This document shows positions 2,304-16,384 of a stretch of 35,355 nt of DNA, in pieces (position 1 is the first letter of the stretch; the number at the start of each line of letters is the position of its first letter). A program made the translations under genes and the position numbers. Location of the stretch: IMG/VR virus record IMGVR_UViG_3300005253_000649, positions 1 through 35,355 of that record. The stretch is one strand, 5' to 3'. A model generated the notes under the pieces. It was given only the letters and a program-made list of their open reading frames with translations, was not told where the DNA came from and did not search any database. The DNA comes from a virus.

Positions 2304-2336
2304 GACTGACTGATGCTCGGAATCCTGAAAGCTGAC
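2304..2336 (+). repeat. Direct repeat copy A at a gene start
   Basis: A 33-nt stretch covers the junction and first codons of the gene at 2313. It recurs at 2509-2541 over the start of the methyltransferase gene. The first 20 nt are identical, and 30 of 33 positions match overall. Confidence 0.9.
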
Positions 2337-2540
2337 CCATACCACGATCTCAAGAAAGTTCACATGGGCCATCTTGTTTCTGACAAGGGTGCTGTTTCTC
2401 CCCTATGTGCAAAGAGGCCGAGGAAGATCAACCTAAAAAGGGAAACCTGGACAATAGCGAAGAGGTTTGTGACCTGCGAGAAATGCAAGGCAGCGTTGAA
2501 GCGGCGGAGACTGACTGATGCTCGGAATAGTCAAAGCTGA
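2313..2540 (+). CDS. Small zinc-binding-like phage protein (75 aa)
   Basis: The 75-aa product begins MLGILKAD, almost the same as the beginning of the next gene product (MLGIVKAD), because both starts lie in a direct repeat. Further on it has a single CEKCK pair and one more Cys, with many Lys/Arg residues, resembling the small phage proteins that end in a vTCkkC motif. The sequence around the Cys pair (KRFVTCEKCKAALKRR) suggests a minimal zinc or nucleic-acid-binding module. Its last 23 nt overlap the methyltransferase gene, so the two are translationally linked. Function is unknown. Confidence 0.7.
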   Translation: MLGILKADPYHDLKKVHMGHLVSDKGAVSPLCAKRPRKINLKRETWTIAKRFVTCEKCKAALKRRRLTDARNSQS

Positions 2541-2541
2541 C
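2509..2541 (+). repeat. Direct repeat copy B at a gene start
   Basis: Second copy of the 33-nt repeat (see 2304-2336), spanning the end of one gene and the start codon of the methyltransferase gene. Confidence 0.9.
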
Positions 2542-3081
2542 GGGATTGTACGCCACTGGGAAATGCCCAATCGCTACACCTTCAAGATGCAAGCCGTACA
2601 GGATTTGTTGAAAAGAGAAATGTCTGGATATTGGGCTGACCCATTCTGCGGCGTTGCAAGTCCGGCCCAAGTTTGTAACGACGCCGATTCTTCTATCCAA
2701 GCCGAGTTTCACCTGGATGGGCTAGATTTTCTGCGCTCATTGAAGGACGAAAGCGTGGATGGGATTCTATTCGACCCACCATATTCACTTGAGCAGGCCC
2801 TCAGAAAGTATAAACCAAAACATAACGGAACAGCCGGTCGCACCGAGTATTGGGCGAAGTGCAAGGACGAAATTGCGCGGATTGTTCGCGCTGGCGGTAA
2901 GGCCATCTGTTTCGGTTGGGATTCAACCGGAATCGGAAACAATCGAGGTTTCAAGTTGCAGCATGTTCTCCTCCTCTGTCATGGAGCTTGCCACAACGAC
3001 ACCATTGTAACAGTGGAGAAGCGCACGGCGGCGATTCAGCGCCCGTTGATAGCCCCCGCCGCGTCAGGGTGGAGGGAGTGA
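2518..3081 (+). CDS. Phage DNA adenine (N6) methyltransferase-like protein
   Basis: The 187-aa protein has the two signatures of amino-DNA methyltransferases: a motif I-like DPFCG at D41, which binds S-adenosylmethionine, and the catalytic motif IV DPPY at 86-89 (FDPPYS). These are followed by a Rossmann-type strand GGKAICFGW. It would transfer a methyl group from SAM to the exocyclic amino group of adenine (less likely cytosine) in DNA. At under 200 residues it is smaller than cellular Dam enzymes and has no clear target-recognition domain, as in many phage orphan methyltransferases. No partner restriction gene is next to it, so protection of phage DNA from host restriction is the likely role. 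The specificity cannot be read from sequence. Confidence 0.85.
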   Translation: MLGIVKADGIVRHWEMPNRYTFKMQAVQDLLKREMSGYWADPFCGVASPAQVCNDADSSIQAEFHLDGLDFLRSLKDESVDGILFDPPYSLEQALRKYKPKHNGTAGRTEYWAKCKDEIARIVRAGGKAICFGWDSTGIGNNRGFKLQHVLLLCHGACHNDTIVTVEKRTAAIQRPLIAPAASGWRE

Positions 3082-6042: not shown

Positions 6043-6255
6043 ATGGCTAGGAAAATAGAAGTTCTAGCCGCGCTTACTGACATCGTTACGGCAATCGAAC
6101 AGTCCGCGCGGGTTCGCTTCACGCTTTCTAACGGGGCACAAATAGATTTTCAATTTGACAACGATGGCTATCTAGTCTGCCATACGATTGACGGAAAGAT
6201 TAGGATTACTCCCGTTGCCAGCAACGCTTTGATTCTCGAAGGCGAAAAGCCATGA
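6043..6255 (+). CDS. Small hypothetical protein (70 aa)
   Basis: ATG 6043 lies just after a GAGGAGG ribosome binding site, so the longer in-frame start at 5896 is rejected. The 70-aa product is an alpha-beta protein: an N-terminal helix (LAALTDIVTAIEQSAR) followed by strands (VRFTLSNGAQIDFQF, YLVCHTIDGKIRIT). Function is unknown. It is linked by ATGA to a small membrane protein. Confidence 0.65.
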   Translation: MARKIEVLAALTDIVTAIEQSARVRFTLSNGAQIDFQFDNDGYLVCHTIDGKIRITPVASNALILEGEKP

Positions 6256-6431
6256 CCCCCAAGCCCAAGGATAAACCCGCAGGGAAGCTATGGATAATCC
6301 CGATGTGCATGTCTTGTATGTTGTCGCTGTTTGCAGGGATGGCTATTGCATGGTGGGGTTCAGTGATTCTCGCGGTGGTGGCCGCAGTCCTGTTTGGTAT
6401 TGCTGTGTGGCTAGAAAGTGAAGGTGTCTAG
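6252..6431 (+). CDS. Small membrane protein with two transmembrane segments (59 aa)
   Basis: This gene of 59 codons starts at ATG 6252, overlapping the preceding TGA. After a Lys/Pro-rich head (MTPKPKDKPAGK) come two hydrophobic stretches: about residues 14-33 (WIIPMCMSCMLSLFAGM) and about 35-53 (WWGSVILAVVAAVLF), then a short acidic tail. This is a hairpin membrane protein. Its size and topology fit a holin, superinfection-exclusion or other membrane-interfering microprotein, but no lysis partner is nearby. Only the membrane character is well supported. Confidence 0.65.
   Translation: MTPKPKDKPAGKLWIIPMCMSCMLSLFAGMAIAWWGSVILAVVAAVLFGIAVWLESEGV
6273..6287 (+). repeat. 15-nt repeat near a gene start, copy 1
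   Basis: The sequence AAACCCGCAGGGAAG recurs exactly at 6439-6453. Each copy encodes KPAGK near the N-terminus of its gene. Confidence 0.8.
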
Positions 6432-6432
6432 T

Positions 6433-6717
6433 ATGAGCAAACCCGCAGGGAAGGTTAAGTTGACGGAGACGCAGGTTGAGGTCTTGCGCCTGCTTGTCAA
6501 GTATCCAGATGCATATCTACGCGAATCACTTTCTTTTTGGCTTACATCTTTGGACGGGTATCGGGATAGATTCCAGCACTACGAAGCGGTCAAGCCCAGC
6601 ACGGTAGCAATCCTCAAGCGCCACAAACTCATAGCAAGGGGCAAGGGCAAAATAGGGCTGAGGGAATATCGCATCACCCCACTTGGCCGTCGTGTCTTGA
6701 AGGAGTCCAGCAAATGA
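6433..6717 (+). CDS. Winged-helix/DNA-binding-like protein (94 aa)
   Basis: ATG 6433 follows the stop of the membrane protein gene by 1 nt. After a short KPAGK tag, the sequence has helices and a wing of a MarR/PadR-like winged helix: LTETQVEVLRLLVKYPDAY, then KPSTVAILKRHKLIARG and a wing with GLREYRITPLGRRVL. The pattern TPLGRRVL is typical of the end of small winged-helix domains. It could be an early transcription regulator. No effector domain is present. Confidence 0.72.
   Translation: MSKPAGKVKLTETQVEVLRLLVKYPDAYLRESLSFWLTSLDGYRDRFQHYEAVKPSTVAILKRHKLIARGKGKIGLREYRITPLGRRVLKESSK
6439..6453 (+). repeat. 15-nt repeat near a gene start, copy 2
   Basis: Exact second copy of the 15-nt repeat at 6273-6287, again encoding KPAGK immediately after the start codon region. 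Confidence 0.8.
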
Positions 6718-6944
6718 AAAAGCCCACGCTCTTGCGCTGGGTACTTTGGTTGCTACAAGGCAAGCCAGATGTCCAATACGACGGCTACCACTGTGGGATT
6801 TGCGGCCGCTGGATTAAGAGTTGGTTCCTGATTCCTACTTACAAGAGCAGCGGGGAATGGATTGATACATGGGGTCTTTGTCCTAGCTGTGCCGCCTGTG
6901 ACGAAGCCCACATGCCAGGAGAATGTGTCAACTGTGGAGCGTAA
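6714..6944 (+). CDS. Zinc-ribbon-like small protein (76 aa)
   Basis: It starts with an ATGA overlap. The product carries CGICG at about 27-31 and CPSCAAC with a distal CVNC, giving three Cys pairs that could bind one or two zinc ions. The first 20 residues include a Leu/Trp-rich stretch (LLRWVLWLLQG) that could be amphipathic. The rest is Trp-rich. Function is unknown. It belongs to the unusually large set of Cys-pair microproteins in this region. Confidence 0.65.
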   Translation: MKKPTLLRWVLWLLQGKPDVQYDGYHCGICGRWIKSWFLIPTYKSSGEWIDTWGLCPSCAACDEAHMPGECVNCGA

Positions 6945-6947
6945 GCC

Positions 6948-7163
6948 GTGAAAAAGCCCAAGCGTGTGCGGAGGAAGGCTAGGTTTAGGGTTAGGCAGAA
7001 GGTGAAGTGTTCCGTGTGTGGCACCAGAATTGTCACCGCTGTTTTGTGGACTGATTCTTTCGGCTATCTGTATCGTTTAGGGCGAGAGAAGTTTAGTGAA
7101 AGTCTAGGTGGTCATAGCGAGGATGAACTTCGCCCCCTTTCGCGTAGAGAGCGAGGCCAATGA
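6948..7163 (+). CDS. Basic protein with one Cys pair (71 aa)
   Basis: GTG start 3 nt after the preceding TAA. The N-terminus is highly basic (KKPKRVRRKARFRVRQKVK) and leads into CSVCG. The C-terminal half is charged and ends with RPLSRRERGQ. The single CxxC and the basic head suggest a small nucleic-acid-contacting protein, but a zinc site would need other ligands. Both start region and size are uncertain. Confidence 0.5.
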   Translation: MKKPKRVRRKARFRVRQKVKCSVCGTRIVTAVLWTDSFGYLYRLGREKFSESLGGHSEDELRPLSRRERGQ

Positions 7164-7414: not shown

Positions 7415-8079
7415 GCCGGGAAGAACTTGTGCAGAAGTTTGGTGAACTCATCTGGACAAGGGTAATCTTGGACAGAGAGGATGCTGACAAGGTAGCTGAA
7501 CTTATCGCCCCAGAAATCGAGCGCCTCCTAGCCGACGAGCGGGAGAACGTGAGGGAGAAGTGCGACGAAGCGCTTTCCTATATGAAAGACAACTTGGAGG
7601 TAAAAGAGGCCGAAGCCAGTGCGGTTACAGATGGGATTTATGAGAAGGGGCGTGTGTCCGGCTTAACAATCGCTCTTGGAGTGATTCGCGGACTCGACCT
7701 CACCGCACCTAGTATGGGTGTGACGAAACCAACAGTTGTATGCCTGTGTGGCTCTACGCGCTTCATGGAGGCGTTCTTTGACGCGGGCTGGCAGGAAACC
7801 CTAGCCGGAAAGATAGTTCTTTCTGTCGGTGTCTGCAAACACGCCGAGGATCATGGGGCCGAGGCGCTTGGGCCAGAAGTCGTTGAAGCGTTGGATGAAC
7901 TCCACCTGCGAAAGATTGATATGGCCGATGAAGTGCTAATTCTCAACGTGAACGGGTACATCGGCAAGAGCACCAGCAACGAGTTGAGATACGCACGGGA
8001 GAAGGGCAAGGTCATACGATTTCTCGAACCAGAGAAAGTCACCGCACCTAAGAGGCCAACCCGACCTCACCGCACCTAG
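7411..8079 (+). CDS. Nucleoside 2-deoxyribosyltransferase-like protein with helical N-terminal module
   Basis: This 222-aa product is a two-module protein. Residues 1-100 are helical and acidic (SREELVQKFGELIW and AELIAPEIERLLAD). Residues 108-207 carry a Rossmann-like core: VVCLCGSTRF at 109-118, a helical stretch with the KIDMADEVLILNV strand at 168-180, and the block IGKSTSNELRYA with Glu191 where 2-deoxyribosyltransferase-like families place the catalytic Glu. Such enzymes cleave or exchange the base of deoxynucleosides, and phage versions may salvage or destroy nucleotides (known for the superfamily, not for this protein). The link between modules (DLTAPSMG) is encoded by a repeat that returns at the gene's end, so this may be a recombinational fusion. 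The C-terminus ends in the repeat-encoded tail RPTRPHRT. Confidence 0.78.
   Translation: MSREELVQKFGELIWTRVILDREDADKVAELIAPEIERLLADERENVREKCDEALSYMKDNLEVKEAEASAVTDGIYEKGRVSGLTIALGVIRGLDLTAPSMGVTKPTVVCLCGSTRFMEAFFDAGWQETLAGKIVLSVGVCKHAEDHGAEALGPEVVEALDELHLRKIDMADEVLILNVNGYIGKSTSNELRYAREKGKVIRFLEPEKVTAPKRPTRPHRT
7695..7714 (+). repeat. 20-nt boundary repeat, copy 1
   Basis: CGACCTCACCGCACCTAGTA occurs here inside the 222-aa gene, immediately before an in-frame ATG at 7714, and again at 8062-8081. A 14-nt part recurs at 8190-8203 and a 12-nt part at 8039-8050. Confidence 0.9.
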
Positions 8080-8081
8080 TA
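8062..8081 (+). repeat. 20-nt boundary repeat, copy 2
   Basis: Exact second copy of the repeat at 7695-7714. Here its TAG is the stop codon of the deoxyribosyltransferase-like gene. A partial copy (TCACCGCACCTA) lies just upstream at 8039-8050. Confidence 0.9.
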
Positions 8082-8091
8082 CGGAGAAAGG

Positions 8092-8436
8092 ATGACTTGG
8101 CTACCCAAAATGTTGTGGAAGATTTCATGCTGGATACTTAAAGGGGTCACTTTCTTTCTGCCGCCACTAAAGAGAAACCGACCACGCACCACCGCACCTA
8201 GTAGCAGGGAGGAGAAGTATATGACTAGAGAAGAGCATCTTGACTGGTGCAAAAAGCGTGCGATGGAGTACGTTGAAACCAACGACCTAAGCCGGGCAGT
8301 AACCTCGATGCTGTCCGACTTGGGAAAACATCCAGATACGAAAAAGTCCCTGGAATGGGCAGGCCCGCTCGGCGTTGGAATTTTGTTGATGAGAGATAAG
8401 CGACGCGTTGTGGAGTTCATTCAAGGGTTCAATTAG
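8092..8436 (+). CDS. Conserved phage hypothetical protein, likely core start at 8221
   Basis: The long frame from ATG 8092 (114 aa, behind GGAGAAAGG) has a hydrophobic N-terminus (MLWKISCWILKGVTFFLPPL) followed by a basic linker encoded by a boundary repeat. The second possible start, ATG 8221, follows a better ribosome binding site (GGGAGGAG) and opens a 71-aa protein: MTREEHLDWCKKRAMEYV, then AVTSMLSDLGKHPDT. This is a familiar phage hypothetical family that normally starts at that position. I think 8221 is the functional start of the family protein, and that 8092-8220 is an extension or module remnant. Function is unknown. Confidence 0.72.
   Translation: MTWLPKMLWKISCWILKGVTFFLPPLKRNRPRTTAPSSREEKYMTREEHLDWCKKRAMEYVETNDLSRAVTSMLSDLGKHPDTKKSLEWAGPLGVGILLMRDKRRVVEFIQGFN
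8190..8203 (+). repeat. Boundary repeat, partial copy 3 (14 nt)
   Basis: CACCGCACCTAGTA matches the core of the 20-nt repeat at 7695-7714 and 8062-8081. It sits just upstream of the ribosome binding site and ATG at 8221. Confidence 0.85.
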
Positions 8437-8460
8437 GACTGGATGAGGGTGGGGAGGAAA

Positions 8461-9015
8461 ATGCAAATGGTTGACATATGTGAGCACCCAATAGAGTGTT
8501 TGGGTCAAGACAAAGAGGGAAAGGGTTGTGGCTGGTGCGCCGATATAAGTGACATGGGCATGTTCTTAGACCACCTTGCGCGAACCTATTGTTATTTCAC
8601 GGACAGCCGAATCTCCAAACCGACAACCATACCAGAAGAAGTTTTCAGCGTGGCCGACGAACTGGAAGGCGAACGTACACAACAAGCCGAGAAGCAAGCG
8701 CGGGCGGAAGTATTGGCGGCTGTCTTGACGGCCTTCGATAAGCGGAAAGCGGTATGTGACCTGGACGAAGAACTGAAACAGCATGGGACTATAATCGCCA
8801 TATTCAGGCACAGAATTGCAGAACTCCAACCCGCCGCCTCTGACCTGGAAGCGTTGCTGCGGGAGGAGCGATTGGAGGAAGCAAGGCTACGTCCTCACCA
8901 AGACGGATGTGCCGCTCTTTTGACTGGTGCCGAAGCAGACGATTGCGACGATTGGTGCGGTAGAAACAAACGCATCGCCGAGCTAGAGAAGGCCCGCGCC
9001 GAGGGGAAGGAATGA
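8461..9015 (+). CDS. Hypothetical Cys-rich, coiled-coil protein (184 aa)
   Basis: The start is set at ATG 8461 behind GGGGAGGAAA, rather than ATG 8443. The first 60 residues contain several Cys and His (CEHPIEC, CGWC, HLARTYC), suggesting a zinc site. The middle and C-terminal parts are long charged helices with coiled-coil character (ELEGERTQQAEKQARAEV and LEALLREERLEEARL), interrupted by a Cys segment (DGCAALL, CDDWCGRN). The protein ends AELEKARAEGKE, the same tail as the following gene product, because a 24-nt repeat covers both ends. No known family was recognised. Confidence 0.68.
   Translation: MQMVDICEHPIECLGQDKEGKGCGWCADISDMGMFLDHLARTYCYFTDSRISKPTTIPEEVFSVADELEGERTQQAEKQARAEVLAAVLTAFDKRKAVCDLDEELKQHGTIIAIFRHRIAELQPAASDLEALLREERLEEARLRPHQDGCAALLTGAEADDCDDWCGRNKRIAELEKARAEGKE
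8987..9010 (+). repeat. 24-nt repeat at a gene end, copy 1
   Basis: AGAAGGCCCGCGCCGAGGGG followed by AAGG is identical to 9340-9363. In both places it encodes the terminal KARAEGK and includes the GAGGGGAAGG that serves as ribosome binding site for the next ATG. Confidence 0.92.
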
Positions 9016-9368
9016 TTGCTTACCACGGTACGAACAAGGAGAACGCAGCCGCAATCAAGCAGGAAGGCTTCAGACAGGGAACGTACTTTTCCTATCGTGT
9101 TGAGGATGCACTAGGCTTTGGCGGGAATCATGTTTTCGCGGTTGAGTTCTCAGCCGACCCAGCCAAGTGGAAGGGAGAACCGGACGGATGGCAGTTTTGG
9201 ACGCGGGAGCATATCCCACCCTCCGCCATCGTTAGCCACGGAGCAATTGAAGAAAACGAACGCCTTGGATTGGTAAACGGGCTACGAGATTTAGCACAAG
9301 GGAAAACAAGGCCACTCACGAAAGTCAGGGCTGAGTTGAAGAAGGCCCGCGCCGAGGGGAAGGGATGA
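9012..9368 (+). CDS. ADP-ribosyltransferase-like fold protein (118 aa)
   Basis: It starts with an ATGA overlap. The N-terminus YHGTNKENAAAIKQEGF followed by GTYFSYRVEDAL matches the opening of ART-superfamily domains: H5 in YHGT and Y25 in TYFS correspond to the first two members of the H-Y-E type triad. The rest (FGGNHVFAVEF, WQFWTREHIPPSAIV) fits the strand order near the end of such domains, but I cannot identify a clear third catalytic Glu. Phage ARTs can modify host RNA polymerase or nucleic acids, and related folds include RNA 2'-phosphotransferases. Activity here is unproven. The last 35 residues are a basic helix ending in KKARAEGKG. Homology to a catalytic ART should be tested by structure prediction. 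Confidence 0.7.
   Translation: MIAYHGTNKENAAAIKQEGFRQGTYFSYRVEDALGFGGNHVFAVEFSADPAKWKGEPDGWQFWTREHIPPSAIVSHGAIEENERLGLVNGLRDLAQGKTRPLTKVRAELKKARAEGKG
9340..9363 (+). repeat. 24-nt repeat at a gene end, copy 2
   Basis: Exact second copy of the 24-nt repeat at 8987-9010, at the end of the ART-like gene and immediately before the ATG of the next small membrane protein. Confidence 0.92.
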
Positions 9369-9538
9369 GGTGGTTCAGCCAGCGAGACATAGTGGTTGCC
9401 TACTGGAGTTTTTCGGTAGGGATTCTTGTAGTCGTCTTGGTTTTGGCTGTCGGTCAAAAGTTGGCAGGCGAAGGAGAGTCAGTTTTCTACCTTTTTTCTG
9501 GGCTGCTGTTAGGTGCGATGTTAAAGAGGGTTTGGTGA
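9365..9538 (+). CDS. Small membrane protein, two transmembrane segments (57 aa)
   Basis: ATG 9365 overlaps the stop of the previous gene and lies directly after a repeat that supplies GAGGGGAAGG. The 57-aa product has a short polar head (MRWFSQRDIVVAYW), a hydrophobic stretch at about 10-29 (FSVGILVVVLVLAVG), a polar loop (QKLAGEGES), and a second hydrophobic stretch at about 41-52 (VFYLFSGLLLGAM) ending KRVW. It is a membrane hairpin, with possible roles such as holin-like or exclusion activity unproven. The gene ends in a GTGA overlap with the next. Confidence 0.65.
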   Translation: MRWFSQRDIVVAYWSFSVGILVVVLVLAVGQKLAGEGESVFYLFSGLLLGAMLKRVW

Positions 9539-12604: not shown

Positions 12605-12633
12605 TTGACACCTTCCAACCCAAAGCAGAGAAT
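12605..12633 (+). promoter_or_regulatory. Candidate promoter for the packaging operon (divergent)
   Basis: On the plus strand, TTGACA (12605-12610) is followed after 17 nt by GAGAAT (12628-12633), a four-of-six match to TATAAT. Predicted transcription start is around 12640, immediately before ATG 12642, so the first ORF could be read from a leaderless or very short-leader mRNA. The -10 box is weaker than that of the minus promoter. Confidence 0.5.
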
Positions 12634-12641
12634 CCTAGCCG

Positions 12642-12770
12642 ATGAGAAAGCGAAAACTGAAGCTGAAGATTAAACTGCACCCGAAACAGCGAGCATTCCT
12701 CAAGAAACACGCTATCGTACGAGTATTTAGTGGTGCGGTCAGACCAGGAAGAGTCAAGAACACGGCATGA
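12642..12770 (+). CDS. Short terminase-small-subunit-like ORF (42 aa)
   Basis: ATG 12642 to TGA 12770, overlapping the ATG of the next gene by 4 nt (ATGA). The product MRKRKLKLKIKLHPKQRAFL continues to a total of 42 residues. The stretch KLHPKQRAFLKKHA resembles the start of the two following genes (KLNPRQRRFVKAYT and KLNARRRRFVEHYT), the usual N-terminal signature of the small terminase family. It may be a remnant or a leader peptide rather than a functional subunit. There is no ribosome binding site before it, consistent with a leaderless start at the promoter. Confidence 0.5.
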   Translation: MRKRKLKLKIKLHPKQRAFLKKHAIVRVFSGAVRPGRVKNTA

Positions 12771-12979
12771 GCAAGCCCAAGAAGCGAAAACTCAACCCCA
12801 GACAGCGCCGGTTTGTGAAAGCCTACACAGACCTTGAGCTTCAGGAGATTTGCAAGGCTAACGGCTGGGAGTTTAAGAAGGGGAAAATGGTGGATGCTGA
12901 GACGTACGCAAAGGGATTAGGGGAAGCGGCTGCAAAACTATTGAAGCGCGCAGGAGAAGCAAGAACCTCTCTGAGATGA
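12767..12979 (+). CDS. Terminase-small-subunit-like N-terminal fragment (70 aa)
   Basis: It overlaps the previous and next frames by 4 nt each. The first 20 residues MSKPKKRKLNPRQRRFVKAY are closely similar to the start of the full small terminase (MSKPKKKLNARRRRFVEHY), 14 of 20 identical by eye. After that it diverges (EICKANGWEFKKGKMVDAE) and ends at residue 70. This looks like a duplicated and diverged or truncated small terminase N-terminus. It may be a DNA-binding regulator of packaging or merely a remnant. Confidence 0.62.
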   Translation: MSKPKKRKLNPRQRRFVKAYTDLELQEICKANGWEFKKGKMVDAETYAKGLGEAAAKLLKRAGEARTSLR

Positions 12980-13473
12980 GCAAGCCAAAGAAGAAACTGA
13001 ACGCCCGTCGCCGCCGATTCGTTGAGCACTACACCAACCCAAACCCGAAAGCGAAGACCTTTGGGAATGGCACAAGAACCGCAATTGCCGCTGGTTACAG
13101 CGAGCACACAGCAAAGCAAGGCGGCTCGCAAGTATTGGCGAATATTGACGTTCAACACGAAATACAGCGCGTGCTCGACGCTGCTGGAGCCACAGAGGAA
13201 CGCTGCGCCGAAGTCTTGACCGCTGGACTCGAAGCGAAAGACACGAAAGTCTTCTGCCAAGACGGAGAAGTCGTGTACTCCGAAGCACTTATTGACTTTG
13301 CCGAGCGCCGGCTCACTGCGGCCGAAGTGCTCAAGCTGCGTGGCCGCTACCCCACCAACCGCACAGTTGAGCGCCTGGAGCTGCTACGCATACAGAACAC
13401 GCTGATCGTGGTGCCCGGGGGACTGCCTGAGCCAGAGGAGAAGGCGAAGCAAGTCCGGCAGCTCACGGACTGA
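12976..13473 (+). CDS. terS: Terminase small subunit
   Basis: This 165-aa protein has the Terminase_2-type layout: N-terminal LNARRRRFVEHY, then a helix-turn-helix region RTAIAAGYSEHTAKQGGSQV, a helical central region (ATEERCAEVLTAGLEAKD), and a C-terminal segment of charged residues (PEPEEKAKQVRQLTD). Small terminases form rings that recognise the packaging site and stimulate the large subunit. Location 0.95 kb upstream of the large terminase and the usual length (150-180 aa) support this. ATG 12976 overlaps the previous TGA. Confidence 0.88.
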   Translation: MSKPKKKLNARRRRFVEHYTNPNPKAKTFGNGTRTAIAAGYSEHTAKQGGSQVLANIDVQHEIQRVLDAAGATEERCAEVLTAGLEAKDTKVFCQDGEVVYSEALIDFAERRLTAAEVLKLRGRYPTNRTVERLELLRIQNTLIVVPGGLPEPEEKAKQVRQLTD

Positions 13474-13578
13474 TGGCCACAAGATGTTGTGTCGCCTGTT
13501 GCAGATAAAAAGCCGACGAGTTAAACCTAGTGCTGCCAACAAAGGTAAGTTCCGATAGTGGGTCTTATGTAAGATACG

Positions 13579-13722
13579 ATGGCCACCCAACCCATCGAGC
13601 AGGCGAGGCACGGAGTGAGACACCCCCCCCTATACCTCGTACCTCCCCTGGAGTCCCAAGCATGTCGTTGTTGCTCAACAGGGATTTTTTCAGGCTGGGG
13701 TTTCTTGAGGCGTAAGGAATGA
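13579..13722 (+). CDS. Possible microprotein (47 aa), doubtful
   Basis: ATG 13579 to TGA 13722, linked by ATGA to the next small ORF. The product begins MATQPIEQARHGV and ends in a Gly/Phe/Arg-rich tail with a CRCC cluster. There is no ribosome binding site and no family match. Support comes only from the unbroken chain of stop/start overlaps leading to the gene at 13861. Confidence 0.3.
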   Translation: MATQPIEQARHGVRHPPLYLVPPLESQACRCCSTGIFSGWGFLRRKE

Positions 13723-13823
13723 AAGGGGGCACGGAGGTTCAGACGCGGACTCCGGCAAGGACGGACGAGGCAACCCCAAAAATTTCGACAGATGGAGAAT
13801 GCACCGACGAGGATTCCCGATGA
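13719..13823 (+). CDS. Possible microprotein (34 aa), doubtful
   Basis: ATG 13719 overlaps the preceding stop and ends at 13823 with another ATGA (next 14-codon ORF 13820-13864, which itself overlaps ATG 13861). The sequence MKGGTEVQTRTPARTDEA is polar, low-complexity and acidic toward its end. It may be a translated leader that couples ribosomes to the gene at 13861. Confidence 0.3.
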   Translation: MKGGTEVQTRTPARTDEATPKISTDGECTDEDSR

Positions 13824-13860
13824 GTAGATTTCCCCGGCCACGCACCCTGGAGTTTCTTGA

Positions 13861-14070
13861 ATGACCTCAGTATATCCGAAAATCATTCGCACTCTCACAG
13901 GAGGCGCATTCGGCACCGTGCGGGAAAAGCTTAGCAAGGTCAACTCCGTACAAGAAGAAATCCATGTGCGGGAACTCGATGCCGAGAGCCTTGCGGAAGC
14001 CGCGAAGATAGAAGCTGAAATGTGGCGCGAGGTACATGCCACACTTGAGAGAGACGATGAGGTTTCTTGA
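13861..14070 (+). CDS. Small hypothetical protein (69 aa)
   Basis: ATG 13861 overlaps a short upstream ORF. The product is helical in its C-terminal half (AESLAEAAKIEAEMWREVHA) with an acidic end. The N-terminus is IRTLTGGAFGTVREK-like and may be a loop-helix. No family was recognised. It lies between the terminase subunits, where phages often keep small packaging-related or cargo genes. Confidence 0.6.
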   Translation: MTSVYPKIIRTLTGGAFGTVREKLSKVNSVQEEIHVRELDAESLAEAAKIEAEMWREVHATLERDDEVS

Positions 14071-14073
14071 CGC

Positions 14074-14343
14074 ATGAGCAACCCTGCTTTCCCTCGCACC
14101 GTAGTCCAGGCAGTCTCCCAAGAATGGTCTGTGATGATCTGGGACACGAAGGAGGGGGTTTGCTACGACGTGCTGGATCAGGAGGGGAACAGGGTGGAAT
14201 TGTCGGACGAAATCTCGAATCAGTTGGGGTTGGTTTTACAGCAGCTTGGACGTAGCGTGGAGAAACAGGTTCACAGCCTGAAGCGCAGGGATTGCCCAGT
14301 GTGCCAGCAGCCAATCAGGAGAGGGGTGGAGGTGGTGCAGTGA
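14074..14343 (+). CDS. Hypothetical protein with C-terminal CPVC (89 aa)
   Basis: It starts 4 nt after the preceding stop. The 89-aa product has an alpha-beta N-terminal part (VVQAVSQEWSVMIWDTKEGV) and a helix (ISNQLGLVLQQLGRSVEKQ), ending in RRDCPVCQQPIRRGVEVV, a single CxxC knuckle. A second ligand pair is missing, so zinc binding would need dimerisation or a partner. It is coupled by GTGA to a membrane micropeptide. Function is unknown. Confidence 0.62.
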   Translation: MSNPAFPRTVVQAVSQEWSVMIWDTKEGVCYDVLDQEGNRVELSDEISNQLGLVLQQLGRSVEKQVHSLKRRDCPVCQQPIRRGVEVVQ

Positions 14344-14420
14344 CACCCGAAACAGCAGGTTTCGCCATTTTTGTTCTCTTCATCCTGTTCGCACTTGCAG
14401 AAGCCTGGGAAGTTTGGTAA
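14340..14420 (+). CDS. Transmembrane micropeptide (26 aa)
   Basis: GTG 14340 overlaps the previous TGA and its TAA overlaps the ATG of the large terminase (TAATG). The 26 residues (MTPETAGFAIFVLFILFALA plus EAWEVW) form one hydrophobic helix. The double overlap suggests translational coupling, either as an expressed membrane peptide or as a device that delivers ribosomes to the terminase start. Confidence 0.5.
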   Translation: MTPETAGFAIFVLFILFALAEAWEVW

Positions 14421-16018
14421 TGCCCGCCACCGCCAAACCAGCCTTAGAGACTGCCAAGCCTTTGTGGGAGCCGCAGGAAGGGCCGCAGAAGGAGTTTTTC
14501 TACTCGCGTGTCTATGAACTCATGTACGGCGGTGCGGCCGGCGGTGGGAAGTCCGATGGCCTTTTGGGGGTTGCGCTCCGGCAAGTGCCCCATCCGCAGC
14601 ATCGCTGCCTAATTCTGCGCCGAACACTGAAAGAACTGAAGAAAGCCGAGGGCTTGATCGACAAGGCCCATCGGTTGCTGCACGGAGTAGCACGCTGGAA
14701 CGGCGAGGACAACACTTACACCTTCCCGACTGGAGCACGGATAGATTTCGGCTACTGCGACTCCGACAAGGACGTTTACCAGTTTCAGGGCAGCGGCTAC
14801 AACTTGATTGAGTTCGATGAACTGACCCGGTTCACCGAATTTCAGTATCTAACCATCTCCGGCTACTGCCGTTCTGTTCACCCTGGCTTAATCAAGATGA
14901 TTCGGTCGGCTACCAACCCGGGGAATATCGGCCATGCTTGGGTGAAGAAGCGGTTCATTGACGCGATGGCGCCTTACGAGATCGTGCGAAGCAAAAATGG
15001 CCTGACCCGGCAGTTCATTCCAGCCAAAGTCCGCGACAACAAGATTCTGATGGAGCGTGACCCCGACTACATCAAACGCTTGGAGGCTTTGCCGGAACCG
15101 TGGCGGACTGCACTGCTCGATGGAGACTGGAATATCTTTATGGGCCAGGCATTCCCCGAATGGAGTTGGGATACCCACACCTGCGATGCGTTTGAGTTGG
15201 AATCTTGGTTTCCTCGGTTGCTCTGCATTGACTGGGGCTATACGTCGAAAGCCTGTGCGCTCTCGCTGGTGAAAACTCCTGAACGCTCCTATTTCTACCG
15301 CGAGTTCTACACTTCCGGCATGAGGCCGAAGGATTTTGCCGAGCGGCTGATTGACACCCACACCGAACCTTCTGGACGACTGGAAAATATCCAACGAGTG
15401 GTGCTTGATCGAGAGTGCTTTGCCCAAAGAGGTTCACCCCAGACGATTGCCGAGCAGATGGACGAAGTATTCCAGCGCGTAGGCTGGCAGTTGGAAGAAT
15501 CCGACTCGCGGGACCGCATCGGCCGAAAAATGCTCTGGCATGAGTATCTGCGTTCCACTCCCCTACGTCCTGTAAAGCCCCGACCTCCAGTGGATGACTA
15601 TTGGGCGGAACGCTTTCGGCTGGAAGGCCCCTCTGCTGTACATGAATATGAAGCTCTGGGAGTGGAGGAAGTCCTGCCGCGGCTCAAGATTTTCCGCCCG
15701 TCGCAAAACGGTCGTTTCGGGTGTCCTCATCTGATTCGCACTCTACCGTCATTGGTGTTGGACGAGAAGAAGGTCGAGGATGTGGACACGCACCAGGAAG
15801 ATCACCCCTACGACGCCGGCGGCTACGGTCTGAAAGCAATGGACTACCGCGCACCGAAAAAACCGATGGAGATTCTCTTGCGTGAACGCATGGCACAAGT
15901 CGGAGATCGCTCTACCATTCACCTCAGCCGAGCAGCAGCAGAGGATTCCATTCGGAAACAGTTGACAGAAGGGAGTGGGAAGCGCATCTTTTACCGGGAA
16001 AGGCCGAGGCCGTTTTGA
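14420..16018 (+). CDS. terL: Terminase large subunit (ATPase and nuclease)
   Basis: This 532-aa protein is the packaging motor. Residues 37-45 hold a Walker A loop (GGAAGGGKS) and residues 129-134 a Walker B box (LIEFDE) whose Glu is the catalytic base, as in the Terminase_6/Terminase_3 type. The C-terminal RNase H-like nuclease has Asp271 in CIDWGYTS, Asp330 in VVLDRECF and Asp465 in HPYDAGGYG, the expected three metal ligands. It pumps DNA into the prohead at the portal and cuts the concatemer. Length fits the family. ATG 14420 is preferred over TTG 14414 because it overlaps the previous stop codon. Confidence 0.96.
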   Translation: MPATAKPALETAKPLWEPQEGPQKEFFYSRVYELMYGGAAGGGKSDGLLGVALRQVPHPQHRCLILRRTLKELKKAEGLIDKAHRLLHGVARWNGEDNTYTFPTGARIDFGYCDSDKDVYQFQGSGYNLIEFDELTRFTEFQYLTISGYCRSVHPGLIKMIRSATNPGNIGHAWVKKRFIDAMAPYEIVRSKNGLTRQFIPAKVRDNKILMERDPDYIKRLEALPEPWRTALLDGDWNIFMGQAFPEWSWDTHTCDAFELESWFPRLLCIDWGYTSKACALSLVKTPERSYFYREFYTSGMRPKDFAERLIDTHTEPSGRLENIQRVVLDRECFAQRGSPQTIAEQMDEVFQRVGWQLEESDSRDRIGRKMLWHEYLRSTPLRPVKPRPPVDDYWAERFRLEGPSAVHEYEALGVEEVLPRLKIFRPSQNGRFGCPHLIRTLPSLVLDEKKVEDVDTHQEDHPYDAGGYGLKAMDYRAPKKPMEILLRERMAQVGDRSTIHLSRAAAEDSIRKQLTEGSGKRIFYRERPRPF

Positions 16019-16236
16019 TGCCGACCAAGACCAAACCGAAGCCAAAGGCGAAGCCGAAAGCGAAGAAAGATACTACCCTCACAGCGCCACCAACTCCAGC
16101 TCCTTCCCCTACAAAATTCCTTCGGCTAATGATCTCGACTTACGAAAGCGAAACCGGCGCTAGGGCAAACCAAGTTCGCTTGATCGACTTCATCCGATGG
16201 TGGGAGGAACGCGAGAAGAATGGAAACACCAGCTAA
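16018..16236 (+). CDS. Small Lys/Pro-rich hypothetical protein (72 aa)
   Basis: ATG 16018 overlaps the terminase TGA (TGATG). The N-terminus is low complexity (KPKPKAKPKAKK), followed by a Thr/Pro-rich linker and a helix with aromatic residues (LIDFIRWWEEREK). The basic head suggests DNA or acidic-protein contacts. Family is unknown. Confidence 0.6.
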   Translation: MPTKTKPKPKAKPKAKKDTTLTAPPTPAPSPTKFLRLMISTYESETGARANQVRLIDFIRWWEEREKNGNTS

Positions 16237-16384
16237 AAAGAAGGGGGACTTCTCAAAAGCCCTAGACCTCATGGAGAGAACACCAAAACACATCTCCTAC
16301 GAAGAGTTTTGCAGCATCTTGGCTAGAAGATGGGCGGAAACCGAGAATAAAGCCAAAGCGGAGGAACGCGAGAAGAGTAACTAA
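16220..16384 (+). CDS. Small helical hypothetical protein (54 aa)
   Basis: ATG 16220 overlaps the end of the previous gene by 17 nt, and a GAAC/GAGAAG stretch precedes it. The product METPAKKKGDFSKALDLMER continues with FCSILARRWAETENK and a charged end (AEEREKSN), so mostly alpha-helical. It is the last gene before an intrinsic terminator. Function is unknown. Confidence 0.55.
   Translation: METPAKKKGDFSKALDLMERTPKHISYEEFCSILARRWAETENKAKAEEREKSN

Follow-up and report, generated by a model that had tools for sequence, protein, structure and literature searches.

Start regions shared by neighbouring genes at and around a phage small-terminase locus

Phage genomes are rich in short genes of unknown origin that lie between conserved genes. 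The window studied here, the whole 35,355-base stretch of virus record IMGVR_UViG_3300005253_000649, holds such a case at positions 12642-13473, where two short reading frames stand ahead of a small-terminase gene and resemble its beginning. Are the short frames copies of the terminase, and what might they do?

Three chained reading frames and one small terminase

Leftward genes apparently fill 10.1-12.4 kb, and a rightward block opens with ORF1 at 12642 (Table 1). The first-pass annotation had described three overlapping frames of 42, 70 and 165 codons, each with the pattern KL....R.F, the second and third also sharing MSKPKK, and had named only the third a terminase small subunit. This description was borne out: the frames are present, all on the plus strand, and overlap only through 4-nt ATGA junctions; the pattern occurs in each of ORF1, ORF2 and ORF3; MSKPKK is found in ORF2 and ORF3 only; and ORF3 alone matches a terminase family (PF03592). 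The six-frame translation of the window holds four matches to KL....R.F, three of them those of ORF1-ORF3, and 456,886 residues of comparison loci hold two. The promoter-like site ahead of ORF1 agrees with the consensus at 10 of 12 bases, in a region that has three such sites against 0.7 expected.

ORF3 is a true small terminase (TerS) of the SF6/SPP1 type. It belongs to PF03592 (Terminase_2) with an E-value of 4.2e-9 and 37.6 bits, above the curated cut-off of 26.1, and it matches phrog_51 (E 4.7e-11). A profile of 16 TerS picks out the SF6 G1P entries 3zqp, 4zc3 and 2cmp in the PDB, and the predicted structure of ORF3 (mean pLDDT 70.5; 80-96 in blocks over the N-terminal 80 residues) resembles 2cmp, 4zc3 and 3zqq in fold comparison.

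The genes for the small and large terminase subunits usually form a tight pair. Here they are separated by ~940 nt (13474-14413) that hold small ORFs only, a departure from that arrangement. Within this gap a CTGGGGTTTCTTGA-like sequence recurs at 13695-13708, 13847-13860 and 14057-14070, a few bases 5' of three successive small ORF starts. Scans of the window for tRNAs and Rfam families gave no matches.

Table 1. Coordinates of the terminase locus and of repeated start regions and junctions in the window
Feature	Position	Strand	Content or basis
ORF1	12642..12770	+	42 codons, rich in Lys/Arg; possible leader ORF and weak third start-region copy
ORF2	12767..12979	+	70 codons; ~22 N-terminal residues copied from or with TerS, then an unrelated helical body
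ORF3, small terminase (TerS), SF6/SPP1 type	12976..13473	+	165 codons; PF03592, PDB profile matches, model
Large terminase (TerL)	14414..16018	+	phrog_979 E 5.5e-51; PF03237 E 1.2e-6
Promoter-like TTGACA-17-GAGAAT	12605..12633	+	consensus match only; ORF1 ATG 8 nt past its end
ATGA, ORF1 stop/ORF2 start	12767..12770	+	sequence
ATGA, ORF2 stop/TerS start	12976..12979	+	sequence
Duplicated start region, copy 1	12745..12833	+	ORF1 end, SD-like AGGAAGAG, ATGA, ORF2 codons 1-22
Duplicated start region, copy 2	12951..13039	+	ORF2 end, SD-like AGGAGAAG, ATGA, TerS codons 1-21
Start region of 75-codon ORF 2313-2540 (MLGILKAD)	2304..2336	+	91% over 33 nt with 2509-2541
MLGIVKAD counterpart at the start of ORF 2518-3081	2509..2541	+	repeat of 2304-2336
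Start-proximal repeat (KPAGK) in ORF 6252-6431	6273..6287	+	15/15 nt identical to 6439-6453
KPAGK repeat, second copy, ORF starting 6433	6439..6453	+	
Start repeat of ORF 6714-6944 (MKKP), weaker	6715..6736	+	82% over 22 nt with 6949-6970
MKKP repeat, second copy, ORF 6948-7163 (GTG start)	6949..6970	+	
Duplicated junction, 3' end of ORF 8443-9015 + SD + ATGA of ORF 9012-9368	8968..9015	+	
Junction, second copy, 3' end of ORF 9012-9368 + SD + ATGA of ORF 9365-9538	9321..9368	+	

The duplicated start of ORF2 and TerS

The segment common to ORF2 and TerS is ~90 nt long and comprises an SD-like element, the ATGA junction and the first ~22 codons. The gapped DNA alignment of its two copies scores 62, a value that none of 2000 dinucleotide-preserving shuffles reached, and against the rest of the window the same stretch scores 33 at best. 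Since the likeness begins ~20 nt 5' of the ATG, it is a duplication of DNA and more than a shared motif. The common peptide, MSKPKK(R)KLN.R.RRFV..YT, has a protein score of 72, reached by 0 of 5000 shuffles. The alignment covers 22 codons, of which 9 are the same in both copies, 7 have synonymous differences and 6 encode another residue (pS 0.64, pN 0.17), and residues were kept as often in 10 of 20000 random-mutation trials at the same DNA distance. This excess of peptide conservation shows constraint on at least one of the two copies; if TerS is strongly constrained, ORF2 may still be drifting freely (P from 0.04 to 0.70 with omega of 0.05-0.15 on the TerS branch). We take the duplication to be real and, to judge from its sequence, ancient.

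Beyond the copied start no significant likeness to TerS was found in ORF2, whether for residues 22-70 (88/300 and 102/300 shuffles), for residues 26-70 (2395/5000) or for the DNA of the tail (769/1000). ORF2 found no family in Pfam or NCBIfam at E 10, and its best PHROGs match is phrog_51 at only E 0.091, over residues 3-21. The helix-turn-helix (HTH) signature of Terminase_2, taken as the 10 invariant columns across 16 aligned TerS, is not seen in ORF2, which keeps 2 of these positions when added to the alignment with mafft and 3 by hhalign pairing counted by hand. The ring-forming central core is also absent, 70 residues being too short for it. The AlphaFold model of ORF2 has three helices (pLDDT 65; single-sequence, low confidence), and TerS does not appear among the Foldseek or VIA rows for this model, whose low confidence means that the absence proves nothing. 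Residues 22-70 have a gene-like amino-acid and codon score, the synonymous-codon part of which alone has no discrimination. ORF2 may well be a small gene whose body is its own and not a packaging decoy, and perhaps a weak DNA binder by way of its basic arm. Of the serial duplication and truncation proposed in the first-pass annotation, a duplicated 5' end of terS ahead of terS is supported; the proposal was not borne out for ORF1, and ORF2 is not a simple truncation of TerS.

ORF2 could instead have arisen as a tandem copy of the complete terS gene that has since decayed, with a recognisable 5' end, a diverged remainder and no present function, a reading that we consider possible, if doubtful. 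The copied segment has the native arm and helix 1 of TerS and so derives from a terS, the neutral ORF2 branch is compatible with decay if TerS is strongly constrained, and hhalign stretches the match weakly as far as residue 35. However, neither DNA nor protein likeness is found past residue ~22, ORF2 scores above 97% of non-gene frames, and neighbours that are not paralogous share their starts in the same way, as described below.

The case of ORF1 is different. Its likeness to ORF2 was reached by 2 of 5000 protein and 40 of 2000 DNA shuffles, and its match to the TerS profile by 0-1 of 300; taken alone, these likenesses look real. It ranks fifth among 420 window ORFs against that profile, with two unrelated ORFs scoring higher, and its ATG is third of 862, the first after the ORF2/TerS pair, in local likeness to both starts, by narrow margins of 1 and 3 points. 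Shuffling the Lys/Arg-rich ORF1 yields KL....R.F in 537 of 100,000 cases. The codon score lies ambiguously between genes and non-genes, and at E 10 no family in Pfam, PHROGs or NCBIfam matches ORF1, Terminase_2 included. Overall, the likeness of ORF1 is weak and near the level of chance ORFs. This level, together with the several MKKP- or MSKP-like starts in the window, would fit a convergence of Lys-rich, A-rich, initiation-favouring starts in which likeness is mostly chance. Such convergence best suits ORF1; it fails to explain ORF2/TerS or the 2313/2518 pair discussed below, and as a general account we find it decidedly unlikely. ORF1 was also considered as a degenerate large-terminase start (GAVRPGR resembling a Walker A motif) and rejected, with 0 Pfam, PHROGs or NCBIfam families, no PDB or phage match, and no resemblance to the TerL of the window over its N-terminal 200 residues (1098/5000 shuffles).

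No homologue of ORF2 and no exact match to the ORF2/TerS start pattern were found in viral_contigs, and a search of phages returned for ORF2 a single chance match of 21 residues (E 7) and for ORF1 none. An upstream N-terminal copy is present in 0 of 36 distinct TerS-like loci, all of them distant. The best upstream ORF score there is 33.1, compared with 72.5 for ORF2 and 40.5 for ORF1, and the lowest of the 36 (L058 77, L061 93, L063 77) may be other than TerS; an upstream alignment scoring 52 at L061 was discarded as a Trp/Cys-rich chance match. Relatives of TerL were found at 13 loci, with best TerS-profile scores of 27-53 and no triplet, some stretches being incomplete upstream of TerL. In the closest of these (L005, 56%) no TerS-like ORF was seen in the upstream kilobase, and a different ORF occupies 135-446. 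The portal gave no relatives, and the ORF1-ORF2-TerS triplet was found in none of the compared loci, all distant. Among open-licence papers, titles and the starts of abstracts held no report of a duplicated terS start or of start regions shared by neighbours.

Start sharing between other neighbouring genes

Similar to ORF2 and TerS, further adjacent genes in the window share start regions or junctions (Table 1). The junctions at 8968-9015 and 9321-9368 are 81% identical over 48 nt, and the consecutive ORFs 8443-9015 and 9012-9368 both end in KARAEGK(E/G) followed by the stop codon. When the start regions of 52 plus-strand genes listed by hand were compared pairwise (1326 pairs), the top four pairs were all adjacent: 2313/2518, 9012/9365, 12767/12976 and 6252/6433. 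The weaker 6714/6948 pair scored 25. Permutation of the gene order matched the observed sum in 0 of 20000 trials and the number of pairs scoring at least 24 in 1 of 20000; without the TerS block the counts were 0 and 3 of 20000. As the repeats had been seen before the hand list was drawn up, the test was repeated with a mechanical gene caller, which gave 64 genes and 6 adjacent pairs of at least 24 (0/5000 permutations; sum 5/5000).

The same caller found no adjacent pairs of at least 24 in lambda, Sicarius2 or the partial viral contigs L071 and L072 that served as controls, and 3 in HMO-2011 (56/5000 permutations). With annotated starts, lambda had 0, HMO-2011 had 2 (462/5000) and Sicarius2 had 2 (356/5000), the last with an adjacency signal in the sum (2/5000). 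Adjacent start sharing is strong in the window phage and not general, though it may not be unique. In HMO-2011 (L074), the most similar starts belong to nearby genes at 26-31 kb, most of them annotated as tail fibre, with pair scores of 28-35.

Local direct repeats in the window gave 9 matches, compared with 0-1 in five shuffles, and both copies lie near starts in 5 of the 8 repeats tested (circular shifts 0/20000). The bodies of start-sharing pairs are unlike one another (56 to 1831 of 2000 shuffles); those of 6714/6948 are borderline and come nearest to significance, at 56/2000. An ungapped, ATG-anchored pair test showed no general excess at ATG codons, with 5 pairs scoring at least 20 of 39 against 4.7 expected. 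Two further repeats were noted: CACCGCACCTAGTA occurs three times, within a gene (7692-7717), at its end (8059-8084) and before the next start (8190-8203), and a 17-nt exact repeat (16203-16219 and 16360-16376) lies near the 3' end of each of two successive small genes (EEREK).

The pair at 2313/2518 gives a view of how such a start may be acquired. ORF 2518-3081, which we take to be a putative DPPY-type methyltransferase, had no match in Pfam. Among its 28 relatives in the viral collection, 22 match from residue 10 or later. An in-frame ATG two codons before the residue-10 match start is present in 7 of the 21 relatives inspected among the 28, and in one of the relatives, L099, a stop codon lies immediately 5' of that ATG. 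Since most relatives match gene 2518 only past the copied codons, its eight start codons (MLGIVKAD) look added in the window phage. For the terminase locus, too, a local habit of duplicating start regions seems the better reading, with TerS as one case.

A proposed duplicated re-initiation junction, its alternatives and known systems

SD pairing at positions -15 to -4 is only -0.7 kcal/mol for ORF2 and -0.6 kcal/mol for TerS, ranks 48 and 49 of the 52 genes (median -6.1), while a displaced SD-like purine run at -28 to -13 is present in both copies (-4.3 for ORF2, -7.4 for TerS). The ORF1/ORF2/TerS chain has the stop/start overlaps of termination-reinitiation coupled pairs. Given that ORF2 and TerS nearly lack a properly spaced SD, the copied piece can be read as a translation re-initiation junction, which would have been duplicated with, or would carry, an extra small gene. 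Ribosomes would pass from ORF1 to ORF2 to TerS through the ATGA overlaps, so that TerS output would be tied to translation of the short ORFs, and the leader from which ORF1 is read might be very short, as the promoter-like site ends shortly before its ATG. The TerS copy is longer and conserves its peptide, which a constraint on the protein would explain as well as one on translation. The duplications themselves may arise by local recombination at gene junctions, which would insert or retain a small gene flanked on either side by a copy of the downstream gene's start. We give about even credence to the full reading, in which the copied ORF2/TerS junction has a role in re-initiation and is one of four or five local start or junction duplications between adjacent, otherwise unrelated genes.

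A more speculative view, which we hold to be rather unlikely, is that the start-spanning direct repeats are scarless boundaries of gene cassettes, where the downstream start or junction is repeated on either side of a small gene (ORF2, 2313-2540 or 9012-9368). Recombination would then remove or add the small gene and leave the start of TerS or of the putative methyltransferase intact, providing a built-in route for the gain and loss of small genes and for the grafting of new N-termini onto neighbours. More generally, if adjacent genes have duplicated starts in common, a small gene could arise, be acquired or disappear at a junction and leave the essential gene downstream unharmed. Such stubs would be mistaken for truncated copies by gene callers and in paralogue searches, and the origin of small genes would become a question answerable from close relatives of a single phage.

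The first-pass annotation had suggested that the short copies could compete for the pac/cos site or for ring assembly, and ORF2 (and ORF1) would in that case act as decoys, modulating packaging by binding either DNA of the packaging site or TerS/TerL. The piece common to ORF2 and TerS is the basic arm plus helix 1, and its peptide likeness exceeds that expected from random mutation. In SF6, the N-terminus and the HTH are described as the parts that shift most on DNA binding, with the strongest effects in the HTH at the turn between helices 2 and 3 and at the beginning of helix 3 (PMC4737164), and an excess of TerS is described as inhibiting packaging in several systems (PMC9611059). The suggestion found no support: with 2-3 of 10 invariant TerS positions, no HTH signature or ring core and a length too short for a ring, ORF2 does not support a decoy role, its low-confidence single-sequence model has no TerS fold match, and none of the 36 other TerS-like loci has an upstream copy. 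Similar start duplications at unrelated neighbours make a terminase-specific role less likely, and we judge the decoy reading very improbable. Scarcely probable, too, is a reading in which the repeated DNA is a site for packaging or for protein binding, with pac-like repeats in the 5' end of terS, and the peptide likeness is a by-product: the pac of P22 lies within its TerS gene (PMC9611059) and that of SF6 is said to contain repeat elements (PMC4737164), but the differences by codon position number 5, 3 and 10, and synonymous changes account for 7 of the 13 codons that differ, a pattern opposite to that of a constraint on the DNA.

Compared with SF6/SPP1-type small terminases, ORF3 is alike in profile, fold and place upstream of TerL, whereas ORF2 is alike in the N-terminal arm and helix 1 only; ORF1 and ORF2 fail to match the family, and ORF2 lacks the HTH signature and the ring core. 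Termination-reinitiation coupling is described as a general mechanism (PMC12548453), and the overlapping stop/start junctions and weak own SD that go with it are found here too. In the window, coupling is read from sequence, and the junction itself is duplicated. The Start Associated Sequences (SAS) of Cluster K mycobacteriophages, a single 13-bp consensus upstream of many starts of unrelated genes with a suggested role in translation initiation (PMC3203893), resembles the window repeats in being tied to the starts of unrelated genes. Unlike the SAS as described there, the window repeats differ from place to place, are shared by neighbours only and reach into the coding sequence. A search of the window for the 13-bp GGGATAGGAGCCC-like sequence 3-7 bp 5' of starts gave 0 matches at up to 2 mismatches. 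Mosaic phages have conserved boundary or linker sequences at gene boundaries that could guide recombination, and these, like the repeats described here, are short shared sequences placed where genes meet. Boundary and linker sequences are common to different genomes, whereas the repeats of the window are common to neighbours within one genome.
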